Shown here: piece by piece, positions 44,791 to 57,859 of the stretch
Numbering within the stretch: the stretch's first letter is position 1
Layout: every line of letters starts with the position of its first letter
From: Geitlerinema sp. BBD 1991-9
Lineage (GTDB): Bacteria; Cyanobacteriota; Cyanobacteriia; Cyanobacteriales; Geitlerinemataceae
Direction of reading: 5' to 3'
DNA length: 64,000 bases
Assembly: GCA_001657325.1 (NCBI GenBank)
Contig: LWRO01000005.1
Location: forward strand, 186,001 to 250,000
Notes under the pieces: model-generated
Told to the model about the DNA's origin: nothing
Database searches by the model: none
What the model saw: the letters and a program-made list of their open reading frames with translations, nothing else
Translations under genes and position numbers: made by a program

Positions 44791-47718
44791 TCACGCTCGA
44801 TCTTGCTGCATGACTGAAACCCGCACTCGATCGAGGGCGAGTTCCAATTGTTCAACTAATTCTGCCATGCCTTGGTCTTGGCTGTCCTTGGCCTGATGCT
44901 CGAGTTGTCGTGCCAGATCGGGAATTTTCAACACGGCGGCGCTGCTACTCGCGCCTTTGAGTTTGTGGGCTAACTGAGATAACCGCATCCAATCGGCTTT
45001 TCGGAGTGCTTCCTTAATGTCGCCCACGCAGATTGTTGCATCTTCAGCAAACGTTTGCAGTAATTCCTGTTGAAATTCGCGATCGCCGCCGGTGATTTCG
45101 TTGAGTCGATCGAGATCCACGGAAACGACGAATTCTACAGCTGTTTCCTCAGCGTGCGAAGCCCCCGAGCGGCCTGCAGTTGGAGTTTGGTCTCGGTCTT
45201 GGTTTTGGCCTCGATCGTTCTGACGCACCCATCGTTCGATCGCCGCTCCAAGAACTTCCCGCTTGACGGGTTTGCTAATGTAGTCGTCCATACCCGCTTC
45301 GAGACAATGTTCTCGATCTCCGTCGAGGGCGTGAGCCGTCATCGCGATCACAGTCGTATGTTGCTGGTTTCCCTCCCGTTCCCGTAATTTTCGCGTCGCT
45401 CCGTAGCCATCGAGAACGGGCATTTGACAATCCATCAGTACGATATCGAAGGATTCTCGCTCTAGTCGATCGAGTGCGATTTGCCCGTTATCTACACAGG
45501 TAACATCTAAATATCCCAACAGTTTGAGTTGGTTGCGCACCACCTTTTGATTCACGGGCGTATCTTCCACCACTAAAATCTTCACCGAGTCTTGGTGTCC
45601 GTTGAGTCCGTTCGTCCGCGCCGCCTCAATTTTGCCAGACACGGGAATGCTATCGACTTCTTCAGCCGAAGCGACTTCGAGCGCACTTTGAAAACGAACG
45701 GTAAACCAAAATGTCGATCCCTTGCCTAACTCGCTTTCGACCCCGATCTCGCCTCCCATGAGCTGTGAAAGCTGTCTGCAAATCGCCAACCCCAAACCCG
45801 TACCCCCATACTTGCGCGTCGTCGAAGCATCTACCTGAGAAAAGGATTGAAATAACTTGTGCTGGTGTTCTGGAGCGATCCCAATCCCCGTATCCCGCAC
45901 TTCAAAGCGAACCAAAGCCGAACCGTCGCTATCGTGCAAATACAGACCCGCAATGCGGATGCTCCCCGAAGACGTAAACTTGATCGCATTCCCCGTTAGG
46001 TTGATGAGAATTTGCCGGACTCGTGTCGGATCGCCCTTCACCCATCGAGGTAAAGCGGGGTCGAGATCGATCGACAGCAGCAGTCCTTTCTCATGAGCGG
46101 GGGCGAATAACAAGCGCTTGACTTCGTTGAGGCAGTTTTCGAGATCGAACGCAATGCACTCCAAGCGCATCTGTCCAGCTTCTAACTTCGAGAAATCGAG
46201 AATGTCGTTGACGATCAGAACGAGGTTTTCGCTGCTACTGCGGATCGTTTGTAGGAAATCCCGCTGTTCTTCCGTCAAAGGCGTAACCAGCAACAATTCT
46301 GTCATGCCGATCACCCCGTTCATCGGCGTGCGGAGTTCGTGACTCATGTTCGCCAAAAACTGACTTTTGGCCACCGTTGCCGCTTCCGCCGCCGATAATG
46401 CCGCTTTGAGATCGACCGTGCGCTCTTCGACCTGCTGTTCCAGGTTACGAGAGTAGCGAGTCAGTTGGCTGTTCGCACATTTCAGTTGCCAGAGAAAGTA
46501 CCAGTTTACGAGGGTCACAGACGATCCGACGATGGCGAACAGCGGAGTCACGATGGGCAACAGCCAACCACTCTGAAAAGCAACGTACACGATCGAAAGG
46601 AGGACGATGCCACTTCCGAACGTCGACGCAACGGCCGCCAGCAAACCCACGCTATACCCTCGCCTGCCAGCGAACTGAAGCAATTTCCAAGTCACCGCCG
46701 CACCGATGACAGACCAGCTGAACGTCCAACACCATTCGATCGATTTCGGCCACAACTGCAGGAGCGGCCGACCTTCCAACGCCGCGCTGAGCAGTTGACT
46801 GACGATATTGGCGTGAACGACCACACCCGGCATTTGCGGGGGATCTTGGCGCAGGTTGCTGCTGTAGGGGGTATAGAAAAAGTCGTTGAGACTCGGTGCG
46901 ACGGGGCCGATTAAAACGATACGATCGCGAAATCGATCGAGGGGAACGTTGCCGTTGAGAACGTCCGTCATGGAGACGGTCTCAAACGTCTCGCTCTCGT
47001 AGTGGAGCAGGATTTGAAAACCACCAATTTCTTCGTCGAAGTAGTTGCCTTCTCGACCGGTTAACGGAATGAGGATGGCTCGGCCCAATCCAAAATGGGT
47101 TTTTTCCGCATCGACGAGTTCGAGGACGATGTTTTGTCGTTCTAAATAGTGCAGAACCAGAAGTGTCGCCAAACCCAAACGTTCTGTATTGGCTTGTCCG
47201 CCCGGGTTTTCAGCTTCGGCGTAGAGAATGGCACGGCGAATCTTGCCGTCGGCATCGGGGACGAGGTCTGACATCCCAACCTGTCCGGAGGCTTCAAGTG
47301 CAGGAGGGGGAGCGACAGTATGACCGATGAATTTCTCAACGCCGAACAGATTCGGCGTCGATCGAAAGACTTCCGCCAGTTCGGCATGGCCCGGCTCGAC
47401 CGGAAGATCTCGATATAAATCCAAGCCGATGGCGGCAGGTTGACCCGAGCGAATGTAGCGCAACAATCGAGCGAGGGTGAGATCGGGCATCGGCCAGTGT
47501 CCGACCGTTACAATGTCGGGTTCGTCAATGGCAACGACGATGATGCGTTTATCGGTGGGAGGAGTCGATCGAAGTCGAAACAGTTGGTCGCGAGCTGTCC
47601 ATTCCCACAGTCGGAACACCCCCCCAATTTGCCCGGCGACGACGAGTCCGGCCACAAGGGGAGCTGCAATCGCAACGAAACGCCACTGCCAAATTTTCGA
47701 CCAGTTCCGAGATCCCAT
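44791..47718 (-). CDS. Hybrid histidine kinase: CHASE2-HisKA-HATPase-REC-HPt
   Basis: This protein has about 975 residues. After one membrane segment comes an extracytoplasmic CHASE2 domain ([41 protein letters not shown]), then three membrane segments, a coiled coil and HisKA ([12 protein letters not shown]). HATPase, one receiver ([26 protein letters not shown]) and HPt ([10 protein letters not shown]) follow. The ligand of CHASE2 is unknown. ATG 47718 is preferred to TTG 47730. It is the first gene of an operon with the cell-wall amidase, which suggests control of, or by, envelope state (inference). Confidence 0.9.
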
Positions 47719-48176
47719 AAGATACGACAAACCTTCCCGACATTTCTCGCAACGCGGGAAGGAGAAACCTCGTACTCAAGTCATACCAAAATCGAGAACC
47801 TAGTGTCGAGTCACGCTACGAGTCACCTTGGGAAGAAACTGAGATCCGCAACGTTTAGCGGCATTTTACGCGATGTTGCGGCGTTTTAGATTCCGCTCTC
47901 CAAGGCTGACTGCATTGAAAACCTGGCAGATTACCCGTTCGAGAAGCGATAGAGGTTCCAGATTCTCTCTCGCAGTTTGCCATGCCGCATACTCGAAAAA
48001 CGGGAGCGTTTCCGCTGAAACCCAAGTCGATGAAAATTCCGTAGACTGTTTTACTCGACAATCGTTTTATCTACGGTTGACTCAGACCTACGCCTGACGA
48101 CTCGATCGCCCCAACGAGGCGCAGGTCTGAGTAGATGCTCCTGAAAGTTATCGTGTCGAGAACGTTCTAACACAGC
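47719..48176. other. Intergenic region with hairpin
   Basis: Between the DUF928 gene and the CHASE2 kinase, both leftward. It contains the inverted repeat at 48080-48132 and presumably the kinase promoter. No coding frame is convincing. Confidence 0.4.
48080..48132 (-). terminator. Candidate DUF928 terminator (15-bp imperfect inverted repeat)
   Basis: ACTCAGACCTACGCC pairs with GGCGCAGGTCTGAGT with one mismatch around a 23-base loop, 45 bp after the DUF928 stop. No T-tract is present. Confidence 0.45.
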
Positions 48177-52073: not shown

Positions 52074-52916
52074 TTAAGTTAAATTTAATGAATTTGAATT
52101 TAATGAATTTAAGTTCATAAAGTCTCTGAGGGCTTCGACCATCCGAGGGGGCCAGCGACGGACTTCGCGAACCCAGGTTAAATCGCTGTAGCGCGAGTCT
52201 AAACCGCGAGCGGCCACCCAGTTACTCTCGGCTTCTCCCATTTTTCCCGTCGTCCACAAAACGGCTGTCAACGCCGCTCGCATATCGGCAAACTGGGGGT
52301 AACGACGCACGATATTTTTCATTTCTCGCAACGCCGGTTGTGTTTCGCCAACTTGATAAAGGGCTAGGGCGTAGTTGGCACGCGCTAAGGCAAATTTGGG
52401 GGCGAGTTCGACGGCTTTGGCGTAGTCAGCCAGAGCTTCGTTCCAGTCCCTGCGGCCGGCGTTGGCATTCCCGCGATTGTTATAGGCAGCTGCGTCTTTG
52501 GGAGACCGGTCTAACACGCGATTGTAGTCAGCGACCGCATCGCTCCACTGTCCTAGGGCTTCGTAGACCGTACCGCGATTGAGATAGGAATCGGGGACGT
52601 TGGGGGCGAGTTCGATGGCGCGGTTGTAATCGGATAGTGCGTCTTGAAGCTTGTTTTGTCCGGCGCGCGTGTTGCCTCGATTGCTCCACAGGGCAGGATT
52701 GTCGGGTAGGAGTTCGATCGATTCGCTCCAGTAAGTCTCGGCTTCGGCAAAGTTGTTTTCGCGCAAGGCCGCGCTGGCACGTTCCACTAAGATTTCTACC
52801 TGCTCGAACGGGGTGTCGATCGGATCGATCTGACTCGCCGTCGCGACTGAGACCAGTCCGAACGCGACGATCGACACCCAGACCAACCCACTCAAAACCT
52901 TAGCAACCCAACCCAT
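52074..52916 (-). CDS. Secreted TPR protein (lumenal type)
   Basis: This 280-residue protein has a signal peptide (VLSGLVWVSIVAFGLVSVATA) and then at least four TPR units with the pattern ALWSNRGNTRAGQNKLQDAL and AAAYNNRGNANAGRRDWNEAL. It is probably in the periplasm or thylakoid lumen, acting in protein contacts. The extreme C-terminus (NLNSLNSNSLNLT) is encoded by a short imperfect 15-bp DNA repeat, and may be a recent extension. It is 225 bp upstream of the CHAT gene. Confidence 0.85.
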   Translation of the reverse strand: MGWVAKVLSGLVWVSIVAFGLVSVATASQIDPIDTPFEQVEILVERASAALRENNFAEAETYWSESIELLPDNPALWSNRGNTRAGQNKLQDALSDYNRAIELAPNVPDSYLNRGTVYEALGQWSDAVADYNRVLDRSPKDAAAYNNRGNANAGRRDWNEALADYAKAVELAPKFALARANYALALYQVGETQPALREMKNIVRRYPQFADMRAALTAVLWTTGKMGEAESNWVAARGLDSRYSDLTWVREVRRWPPRMVEALRDFMNLNSLNSNSLNLT

Positions 52917-52951: not shown

Positions 52952-54979
52952 TCAACCTTGACGGACGGGCAGTTCGATAACGATCTCTGTACCTCGATCG
53001 ATTCGATCGTTGACGTACAGTTTACCCCGATGCCCCTGGACGATAACTTGATAGCACGTTGACAACCCGAGTCCCGTTCCCTGACCGACGGGTTTCGTGG
53101 TAAAAAACGGGTCGAACACGCGATCTCGGATCTCGGCAGGAATGCCCGAACCGTTGTCGCGGAAGGTCAGACGCACCCACACCTGAGAAATTCGCTCGGT
53201 GACGATTGTGAGCTGCTTGGGGTGTTCGACCTCGTCAAGGGCATCGAGGGCGTTTTCGAGCAGATTAAAAAAGACTTGATTGATTTGACCGGGACGACAC
53301 TCGACGTTCGGTAAATCGGGATCGTACTGTTTGCAAACCTTTAAATCTGCGACAAACCGCTGTGTGAGGACGACGAGAGTACTTTCGAGACACTCGTGTA
53401 AATCAACAGCTTTTTGTTCGGCTTCGTTGAGATGCGAAAAGGTTTGCAAGGATTTCACGACATTAGAAATGCGATGAGAACCTTCCTTCATCGATTTCAT
53501 AACATTTGGAAAGTCCGAACGTAGGTATTCAAAATCGATCTCTTCTTTGATCTGTTCGATTTCTGAATTTTGCAAATTTTGAAAGCTTTCGAGTAGTAAC
53601 GTCCCGTATTCGTTGGCGTAGTGTAAATTGGCAAAGATAAAATTGTTGGCGTTATTAATTTCGTGGGCGACACCTGCCGCCATTTTGCCCAAACCCGAGA
53701 GTTTTTCACTTTGAATCAATTGTAGTTGTGTCGATTGCAATCGATCGAGCGTTTCTTGTAATGCCTGTGCTTGTGCTTTCGTTTGGGCGTAGAGTTCTGC
53801 TTGTTGGATGGCAATGGAAATTCGATCGGACAATTGCGTCATCAGTTGACTCTCGCGGCTTTTCCAACGTCGTGGAGCGCGACAGTGATGCGCGACGAGC
53901 AATCCCCACAAGTGTGAGGCTTCGGTTTCGGGTTGTTGTCGAATGAGAATGGGAACGATCAAGTTAGCCCGCACTTGCAAGTTTTGGAGAAATGCCGCGT
54001 GGCATCGATCGAGTCCGGGATCGCGAGTCACATCGTCAATGGCTCGCACTCGCCCTTCGCGATACAGTTGGGCGTACTCTCCTGAAAAACAATTATCCGC
54101 CCCCATGTCGCCGAGAACAGAGATCCAGGGATCGATAACGTCTTCGACAACGACGCGACCGTGCCAGTTTTCGTAAAATTGATAAATGACCGCGCGATCG
54201 GTGTTTAACAGCCGTCGCGCACCTCGAACGGCAGTTTTGAGAATAGTGTCGGCATCGAGGGTATTGCGAAGTTGATTAGTGACGAGGTGCAAAAATGCTT
54301 CTTGGGCAGCCGCGTCGAGTGTCGTTCGATATAGTAAGGCTCGATCGATGGCAATGCCGAGTTGACGGGCAACCCCTTCAAGGAGTTGGATTTCCCCATC
54401 TTTCCAAACTCGTTCTCGATCGCATTGATGGAGTCCGACGATGCCGTTGACTTTGTCCCGGTTGCGTGTGGCGATGGCTAACATCGATCGAATGTTCAAC
54501 GAGCGCGTAATTTGCTTCGTCGTGTCGCTCAAACCGGGAAATTCGATAAAACGTTCGACGGCGATCGCGTTTGGTGCTTGCAGTAAAGCTTGAATATGAG
54601 CGTTGTCCGCTGGGTCGATTTCGAGACCGAGTTGTGAGGGATGGTCTCCGTCGTTATATTCGCCTCGGGTCACGAGAATGTTGCATTCTGGGTCTTCCCG
54701 CACGAGAATGCTGGCGCGGTTGCTCTGTAGCGTTCGACAGAGCAACTGACAAGCTGTATTCAAAACTTCGTTGAGATCCAACGTACTGCTCAATTGAATG
54801 TTAATTTCGTTGAGTAGGGTTGCGATCTGACACTGTTCCTTGAGGGTTTCTGCTGAAACGACAGAAACATCCGTCGAACAGTCGTCGCCAGGCTCTGCCT
54901 CTGCTAGATTGGGGGGCGAAGCCGATCGCCCGGAACGATCGAGCAGTTGCCAGTCAGACGAACGGTGTGGAGAAGACAT
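52952..54979 (-). CDS. Cyanobacteriochrome histidine kinase (GAF-CBCR GAF-HisKA-HATPase)
   Basis: This 675-residue soluble kinase has an ordinary GAF domain (about 60-217) and a second GAF (about 228-397). The second GAF reads DRAVIYQFYENWHGRVVVED, GADNCF, EGRVRAIDD, LDRCHAAFLQ and VRANLIVPI. Cys326-His327 matches the bilin-attaching Cys-His of cyanobacteriochromes. Cys297 sits in a D-x-C-F motif 29 residues before it, the arrangement of dual-Cys DXCF photoreceptors. HisKA (VAHEINN, His439) and HATPase (NLLENALDAL, FDPFFTTKPVGQGTGLGLS) follow. It should sense light, probably blue/green or teal, and phosphorylate an unlinked regulator. Confidence 0.85.
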   Translation of the reverse strand: MSSPHRSSDWQLLDRSGRSASPPNLAEAEPGDDCSTDVSVVSAETLKEQCQIATLLNEINIQLSSTLDLNEVLNTACQLLCRTLQSNRASILVREDPECNILVTRGEYNDGDHPSQLGLEIDPADNAHIQALLQAPNAIAVERFIEFPGLSDTTKQITRSLNIRSMLAIATRNRDKVNGIVGLHQCDRERVWKDGEIQLLEGVARQLGIAIDRALLYRTTLDAAAQEAFLHLVTNQLRNTLDADTILKTAVRGARRLLNTDRAVIYQFYENWHGRVVVEDVIDPWISVLGDMGADNCFSGEYAQLYREGRVRAIDDVTRDPGLDRCHAAFLQNLQVRANLIVPILIRQQPETEASHLWGLLVAHHCRAPRRWKSRESQLMTQLSDRISIAIQQAELYAQTKAQAQALQETLDRLQSTQLQLIQSEKLSGLGKMAAGVAHEINNANNFIFANLHYANEYGTLLLESFQNLQNSEIEQIKEEIDFEYLRSDFPNVMKSMKEGSHRISNVVKSLQTFSHLNEAEQKAVDLHECLESTLVVLTQRFVADLKVCKQYDPDLPNVECRPGQINQVFFNLLENALDALDEVEHPKQLTIVTERISQVWVRLTFRDNGSGIPAEIRDRVFDPFFTTKPVGQGTGLGLSTCYQVIVQGHRGKLYVNDRIDRGTEIVIELPVRQG

Positions 54980-55247: not shown

Positions 55248-56084
55248 ATGCCGAACTCATTCTCCTGCGAACGTCCATCTGATGCATCCTGGTTAGCTCT
55301 TGCCATTGGCAACTCGCGGTTGCATTGGGCGCAGTTCGATCGAGACGAGATCGTTGCAACTTGGCATACACCGCCGATGGCGTCTGCGGACATCGATCGA
55401 TTGCAAGCGAGTCAGTTTGATTTTTCTCCCTGGTGCGAGGTCGTACTGCGCAGTCGGATTCCCCTGGTTGTCACGTCAGTCGTTCCCCAACAACTCCGCC
55501 TGTGGCGAGATCGCTTGCCAGCCGATGTTATCGAGCTTGACGACGTCCCCTTACAGAAATTGTATCCGACCTTAGGGGTCGATCGAGCACTGGCTGCTTT
55601 AGGCGCGGGAACTCAATACGGTTTTCCCGTTTTAGCGATCGACGGAGGAACGGCCTTGACGCTGACGGGTGTTGACGGGACTCGATCGTTCGTTGGTGGC
55701 GCAATTTTACCGGGGTTACGCTCGCAGTTGACAACGCTCGGACAGAAAACGGCTGCTTTACCGACGATCGATCTCTCAATCGATCTCTCCGGTCAAACCG
55801 CCTTACCGCCTCGCTGGGCATCTGATACCCCAACAGCAATACGGAGCGGTATCGTGTATACCGTCTTGGCCGGGCTGCGGGATTTTATTGAAACTTGGTG
55901 GCAGCAATACCCCCGCAGTGCTGTCGTCTTGACTGGAGGTGATGGTGAGATCTTACGACGGGGTTTGTCCGAACTTTCCCCCGAGATCGGTGCGAAGGTT
56001 CGCTGTGATGCGAACGTCTTGTTTTGGGGCATGAACGCATCGATCTCGTTCAAAACACAGCCACCACTCGCGGATGACTGGTGA
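55248..56084 (+). CDS. coaX: Type III pantothenate kinase
   Basis: This 278-residue ASKHA-fold kinase has IGNSRLHWAQFD (phosphate 1 region), YPTLGVDRALAALGAG (pantothenate site) and AIDGGTALTLTGV (phosphate 2 region), and FVGGAILPGL. It phosphorylates pantothenate, the first step of coenzyme A synthesis; CoaX forms are the usual cyanobacterial type. The stop codon lies inside the first unit of a heptanucleotide repeat. It is divergent from the CBCR kinase. Confidence 0.88.
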   Translation: MPNSFSCERPSDASWLALAIGNSRLHWAQFDRDEIVATWHTPPMASADIDRLQASQFDFSPWCEVVLRSRIPLVVTSVVPQQLRLWRDRLPADVIELDDVPLQKLYPTLGVDRALAALGAGTQYGFPVLAIDGGTALTLTGVDGTRSFVGGAILPGLRSQLTTLGQKTAALPTIDLSIDLSGQTALPPRWASDTPTAIRSGIVYTVLAGLRDFIETWWQQYPRSAVVLTGGDGEILRRGLSELSPEIGAKVRCDANVLFWGMNASISFKTQPPLADDW

Positions 56085-57190: not shown

Positions 57191-57859
57191 TTAGGGCGCT
57201 GTTCCGTTACTGTTGAAAGATTCGATCGCGTTCTCACCGTATAAATAAATGGTACGAATGTCTTCCGGAAGTGCTTCTTCAAGTTGTCGGTATCCAGTGG
57301 GAAGCTGTCGCGCAACTTCAGCCGGTGTCACGTTTTCCCCTTCAGCTTGTAGATAAGCCGCAATTCGCGTCTCGCTCCATTTAAACGTCTGCGACATCAC
57401 CACCATAAGCCGCAGCAGGGGGGGCAAGGTATCTAATGCCTGTTGCAAATAACACCACAAGGGGGGAGGTGCAGCTTCCAGAGAATATTGAATCGATTCA
57501 ACCGGAGGGAGTTGCGCTCGATCGATCGACATCGCCGTGAGTTCGATCAACCAGTTTTGTAAAGTCAACTCTCCCGTTTCATCGTTATTGGCTTCTATAC
57601 TAGGGTTAAAATCAAGGGTTCGCATTTCGTGGAAAATTCGCTGCCAGATTAAGGCAAAAAGGTAGTCAGCGCGCACGGGGGATTTAGCCGAATGGCGAAC
57701 CAGCGTGTAGACGATCGCACTGTAACGGCAAAAAATGGCCGTGAAGTACTTTCCTTCGTCCGGATGCCGCTGGTACAGTGTCAGCAACTCCCGATCGCTG
57801 TGGTGAAACAGCGATTTAACGATCGGGTGGCTCGCTTCGGGAAACGTGGGGATTTGCAC
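57191..57859 (-). CDS. Sigma-70-family RNA polymerase sigma factor (group 3/ECF-like)
   Basis: This 222-residue protein starts at GTG 57859. It contains RELLTLYQRHPDEGKYFTAI with FCRYSAIVYTLVRH, resembling sigma region 2, and a C-terminal LPPLLRLMVVMSQTFKWSETRIAAYLQ, resembling region 4 with its helix-turn-helix. The pattern YSLEAAPPPLWCYLQQALDTLP is conserved in a cyanobacterial family annotated as sigma-70 family, by recall. The linker is divergent, so assignment is moderate. It heads an operon with a TPR protein and has an upstream element shared with the CHAT gene. Confidence 0.7.
   Translation of the reverse strand: MQIPTFPEASHPIVKSLFHHSDRELLTLYQRHPDEGKYFTAIFCRYSAIVYTLVRHSAKSPVRADYLFALIWQRIFHEMRTLDFNPSIEANNDETGELTLQNWLIELTAMSIDRAQLPPVESIQYSLEAAPPPLWCYLQQALDTLPPLLRLMVVMSQTFKWSETRIAAYLQAEGENVTPAEVARQLPTGYRQLEEALPEDIRTIYLYGENAIESFNSNGTAP

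Follow-up and report, generated by a model that had tools for sequence, protein, structure and literature searches.

A predicted dual-cysteine (DXCF) cyanobacteriochrome histidine kinase of Geitlerinema sp. BBD 1991-9 and its orthologues in related filamentous cyanobacteria

Described photoreceptors and the Geitlerinema kinase

GAF domains of the DXCF type of cyanobacteriochrome (CBCR) are typically described as combining a blue dark state with a green photoproduct and phycoviolobilin (PMC11284453), while some are reported to form teal, yellow or orange products (PMC5240096). In the GAF domain of TePixJ (3vv4, 4fof, 4glq), a blue/green DXCF CBCR, C494 and C522 are described as forming thioethers to C10 and C3-1, respectively, and D492 and H523 are further residues given in the same source (PMC6955287). 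PPHK (6oap) is a dual-sensor histidine kinase from Leptolyngbya sp. JSC-1 (PMC11480761), and RcaE (7ckv, 8k9o) is the green/red sensor kinase of chromatic acclimation. DpxA of Fremyella diplosiphon, a teal/yellow CBCR, is described in a commentary as repressing phycoerythrin and as having measured kinase activity (PMC4937213); we compare it here by description alone, as a CBCR with measured kinase activity.

The kinase considered here lies in a 64,000-nucleotide stretch of the genome of Geitlerinema sp. BBD 1991-9 (contig LWRO01000005.1, positions 186,001 to 250,000; this whole stretch is called the window, and coordinates refer to it). The host genome comprises 5.98 Mb on 113 contigs. An original prediction, made from the letters of the window, had placed a dual-cysteine CBCR kinase at 52952-54979, and the reading frame (675 aa), its strand (minus) and its coordinates were all borne out. 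The features of the protein are as follows.

52952..54979, minus strand: GAF-GAF-histidine kinase of 675 aa, probably soluble, predicted DXCF CBCR kinase (ORF, Pfam, motifs)
54341..54781, minus strand: GAF1, about residues 67-213, without bilin cysteines (Pfam GAF_2/GAF_3, tree, column check)
53807..54256, minus strand: GAF2, residues 242-391, predicted bilin-binding CBCR domain (Pfam, PDB matches, model, tree)
54089..54091, minus strand: Cys297 codon, second (DXCF) cysteine (aligned with the Cys of TePixJ DPCF)
54002..54004, minus strand: Cys326 codon, canonical bilin cysteine, followed by His327 (aligned with TePixJ CH)
53663..53665, minus strand: His439 codon, predicted phospho-acceptor in AHEINNANN (AHEINN at 438; HE kept across the orthologue alignment)
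52961..53287, minus strand: HATPase_c, residues 565-673 (Pfam, E 2.9e-23)

Within GAF2, the residues on which the original prediction rested, D295-N-C297-F298 and C326-H327, were found in place, and the remaining CBCR signature is intact (EDV at 279, GRVRAI at 309, VRANLIVPI at 336). A histidine kinase output, also part of that prediction, is confirmed by the Pfam HATPase_c match together with the kinase motifs AHEINN (438), NLLENALD (572), DNGSGIP (608) and GTGLGL (634), the H box being AHEINNANN with His439. Pfam HisKA is absent from the matches to the 675-aa protein, though the H box AHEINNANN and the ATPase motifs are there. No PHY family occurs among its Pfam matches either, and the two PHY matches of the genome both fall outside the window (C105 and C80:125011). 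Kyte-Doolittle values over 19-residue windows all stay below 1.6 (maximum 1.33), which makes the protein probably soluble, as had been proposed. GAF1 has a Cys at neither bilin-cysteine column of the alignment, and bilin binding by this domain was set aside for that reason; it is probably a structural or second-signal domain.

The H box itself (53640-53665, the His439 region) reads HEINNANN, with an Ala replacing the Pro of some related kinases. Among the 30 loci of the genome search described below, the window's own included, the residue after HEINN is Ala in 23 and Pro in 6, and was left unread by the pattern in 1. We set this Ala aside as a family mark, as HEINNANN was a search peptide of the orthologue scan and the resulting set is biased.

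Placement of the second GAF domain and conservation of its cysteines

The best PDB sequence match of GAF2 (window:53780-54307:-) is PPHK (6oap, 2.8e-32), followed by RcaE (8k9o, 2.6e-31; 7ckv, 2.6e-29) and TePixJ (3vv4, 9.8e-28). An AlphaFold2 model built from a 43-row alignment (mean pLDDT 89.0, pTM 0.87) has PPHK, SyB-Cph1, TePixJ, miRFP670nano and AnPixJg2 (3w2z) as its top Foldseek matches, and each of the best 50 of 757 matches is a CBCR or phytochrome structure or a protein derived from one by engineering. PPHK, the top match in both sequence and fold, is alike in having its bilin GAF in a histidine kinase, but has DQYF at the DXCF site, without a second Cys there. RcaE also has a CBCR GAF in a histidine kinase, but shows QEVF and CL where the window protein has DXCF and CH, and it stands at another place in the tree.

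TePixJ shares the DXCF Cys, the DXCF Asp and the CH motif. In the alignment, Cys297 falls on the Cys of DPCF and Cys326 on that of CH, and D295, F298 and H327 align too, D295 and H327 with the TePixJ residues D492 and H523 (PMC6955287); N339 of GAF2 corresponds to N535. Identity between the two domains is 34-36% in fold alignments. TePixJ differs in having Gln526 where the window protein has Phe330, and in being deposited as a methyl-accepting chemotaxis protein, whereas the window protein is a kinase. The cysteines of GAF2 are 29 residues apart, as the original prediction had it; the accompanying statement that known DXCF photoreceptors share this spacing does not apply to TePixJ, where it is 28 (C494-C522), because the window protein has one extra residue before the CH motif. 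Both spacings are found among the 42 aligned GAFs with both cysteines, 28 in 24 of them and 29 in 18, the window included.

The phylogeny that the original prediction had called for was built from 57 GAF domains, with the sequences of Tlr0924, Tlr1999, UirS and DpxA left out. Thirteen GAFs that lack the bilin cysteines, among them GAF1 of the window protein, are separated from the other 44 with support 95/96; that these 13 are 'non-bilin' is our reading from the missing cysteines and the grouping. GAF2 falls within a CBCR crown of 38 rows (96/82) together with TePixJ, PPHK and red/green CBCRs. The 22 rows of its own branch (89/93) are its orthologues plus two other GAFs from the host genome, none of them characterised. 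A paper by Rockwell from 2015 reportedly deals with DXCF lineages. The topology tests reject a grouping of the query family with the GAF1s (p-AU 0.00065) and disfavour, short of rejection, one with the full set of 13 non-bilin GAFs (p-AU 0.091). GAF2 and TePixJ stand apart in the best tree, though the test also allows a tree that joins them in one clade (p-AU 0.252).

Conservation was followed in orthologues collected by scanning genome contigs with query peptides. This gave 58 loci, of which 49 (L031 to L079) were taken for orthologue work and nine (L080 to L088) were excluded, their matches covering the kinase part alone. Of 50 rows (the 49 orthologues and the window), 48 have both cysteines and the His; L076 and L078 have no letters at those columns. 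The GAF alignment comprised 43 sequences, the window and 42 of 59 relative GAF stretches, tandem copies included. Here D, C and F of DXCF are each found in 43/43, as is the His, and the canonical Cys in 42/43. The exception is the second CBCR GAF of L073 (L073:7162-7656, Oscillatoria), in which DXCF is kept and Glu stands at the canonical Cys; given this Glu, bilin binding by that domain may be altered or absent.

As a cross-check, 30 loci, the window's own among them, were fetched from a search of 119 genomes, 73 of which matched. The DXCF...CH pair occurs in 26 of these and is missing in L140, L144, L146 and L147 (identity 37-40%); this set shares organisms with the orthologue set, and the two are not independent samples. 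Of the 13 non-bilin GAFs in the tree, 0 have a Cys at either column, while on the other side 24 of 44 have both, a count that includes the query and its relatives and is therefore not independent evidence.

Proposed photocycle and competing readings

Together, the CBCR sequence and fold matches, the tree, the cysteine conservation and the bilin-pathway genes of the host support the predicted identity as a DXCF CBCR kinase. We consider it likely that the window ORF encodes a dual-cysteine CBCR histidine kinase, one that absorbs blue light in its dark state and whose activity is switched by conversion to a longer-wavelength product. Points against this reading are Phe330 in place of TePixJ Gln526, the Ala after HEINN, the missing canonical Cys in L073, the lack of characterised members in the branch of GAF2 and the p-AU of 0.091 for grouping with all the non-bilin GAFs. 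By homology, GAF2 would attach a phycocyanobilin-derived bilin through Cys326. By analogy with TePixJ and other DXCF CBCRs, Cys297 would form a second, labile thioether at C10 in the dark state, giving blue absorption, and blue light would isomerise the bilin and break the C10 bond, yielding a green-to-orange form. The change would then be relayed through the linker to the kinase module (His439 and HATPase_c), which would phosphorylate a response regulator encoded elsewhere. Both the colour and the bilin of GAF2 are predicted from typical and variant DXCF CBCRs, and the product is put at green to orange because the typical domains are blue/green and some are teal, yellow or orange.

Chromophore supply fits this prediction. 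The genome has two heme oxygenase matches and three matches to ferredoxin-dependent bilin reductases, from which we infer enough enzymes for phycocyanobilin and probably for phycoerythrobilin, the three reductases being untyped. It also has 76 GAF matches, and the receptor would be one of several, since further DXCF-type GAFs lie on contigs C58, C20 and C51. One of these (L091/L011, C20:70748-71203) is a 176-residue open frame holding a DXCF-type GAF (DDCF...ACH) and little else, possibly a light sensor that consists of one domain and has no output. On C80, some 60 kb before the window, lies a GAF-PHY-GAF-kinase (L150); its last GAF combines CH with TGCF, which resembles DXCF except that Thr replaces the Asp.

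The strongest alternative, which we still regard as unlikely, is that GAF2 binds bilin and Cys297 makes no reversible C10 adduct, so that the colours are not blue/green (e.g. green/teal or green/red) and Cys297 either aids PCB-to-PVB isomerisation alone or does nothing. Some CBCRs are described as isomerising the bilin without reversible ligation, the function of the second Cys varies, and AM1_6305g1 isomerises PCB to PVB with no need of that Cys, working with a Cys-to-Ser replacement (PMC11284453). As that example shows, the DXCF motif by itself does not determine colour or mechanism. PPHK and RcaE, which score highest among the solved relatives, have no DXCF Cys, and TePixJ, though not joined with GAF2 in the best tree, may yet share a clade with it (p-AU 0.252). 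Against this reading, the invariance of D, C and F of DXCF in all 43 aligned GAFs suggests that Cys297 is used.

Less probable again is a CBCR-fold GAF that has lost bilin binding and uses its cysteines to sense redox or a small ligand. Such loss is plausible in the group because bilin-side GAFs that lack the two cysteines exist in the same genome (own_L017_958, own_L004_1456), but the DXCF and CH motifs of this family are intact and conserved over many genera. An ordinary non-photosensory GAF kinase with DXCF and CH as chance residues is very improbable: although the topology test stopped short of formally rejecting a group of the family and all 13 non-bilin GAFs, GAF2 matches bilin GAFs in sequence and fold, the grouping with the GAF1s was rejected, and chance cysteines are disfavoured by both the conservation of DXCF and the non-bilin control.

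Gene neighbourhood and spread of the family

On the minus strand of the window, the order of genes is kinase, TPR protein, CHAT protein, DUF928 protein and a CHASE2 hybrid kinase with receiver and Hpt. The immediate neighbours of the kinase are the following.

52074..52916, minus strand: TPR protein with an apparent signal peptide (judged by eye), 35 bp downstream of the kinase on the same strand
55248..56084, plus strand: coaX, type III pantothenate kinase, divergent (head-to-head) neighbour of the kinase

The original prediction had the kinase without an adjacent regulator, which fits: among 14 window proteins scanned with Pfam, the sole receiver domain is that of the CHASE2 hybrid kinase (44791-47730). 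The CHAT and TPR genes of its proposed neighbourhood were likewise found, while the 'sigma' gene (57191-57859) has a weak Sigma70_r4_2 match at 20 bits, below the cut-off of 25.7. Kinase and TPR gene possibly share an operon, and a TPR gene also lies downstream of the kinase in L063, L066, L067, L069, L072 and six further loci, some of which may come from the same genomes. As in the window, coaX is divergently upstream of the kinase in 44 of the 49 orthologous loci. Of the five others, three (L070, L076, L078) start inside the kinase frame or immediately ahead of it; the remaining two, L062 and L075, are without coaX in more than 5 kb. We know of no functional reason for this head-to-head pairing.

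In 20 of the 49 orthologous loci (e.g. L051:8341-12260), a flavodiiron gene lies downstream of the kinase on the same strand, and in 17 there is a pair, which we take to be flv3-like and flv1-like. The flavodiiron identity comes from a best PDB match to 'putative diflavin flavoprotein A 3', with all NCBIfam matches below cut-off. The 20 loci comprise 18 of the 37 with at least 3.1 kb downstream and two with shorter flanks; they come from related species and are not independent. Between kinase and flavodiiron gene lie 118 to 3114 bases, distances at which only some of the loci could plausibly have a shared transcript. A flavodiiron operon in the window was ruled out, the genes being absent there; the window's genome has the pair elsewhere, and a link between light and flavodiiron proteins would there act in trans. 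Because a flavodiiron gene or pair trails the kinase in many relatives, we offer as a doubtful suggestion that the family (a GAF, one to three DXCF GAFs and a histidine kinase) forms an uncharacterised lineage of DXCF sensors and that its light signal has a part in electron flow for photoprotection.

The number of CBCR GAFs before the kinase varies: one in the window protein, L031 and Microcoleus-type proteins, two in L063 (Baaleninema simplex), L066, L067, L069, L072 and L073, and three in L075 and L077. The third GAFs form a distinct branch of the tree (96/94), and so a GAF still carried by near relatives may have been lost from the window protein. Among plasmid records, 14 had a match, each less than 60% identical. 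No paper describing this kinase family was found in a search of titles and abstract openings that had most subscription journals outside its reach.

In all, kinase orthologues are common in related filamentous cyanobacteria, and the protein is an ordinary addition to the known class of two-cysteine bilin sensors. A widely conserved kinase family is thereby added to the predicted two-cysteine light sensors. Its members, with anything from one to three such predicted GAFs, are a natural resource for the question of why like sensors are stacked in photoreceptors. The family would tie colour sensing to photoprotection if its flavodiiron neighbourhood proved functional.
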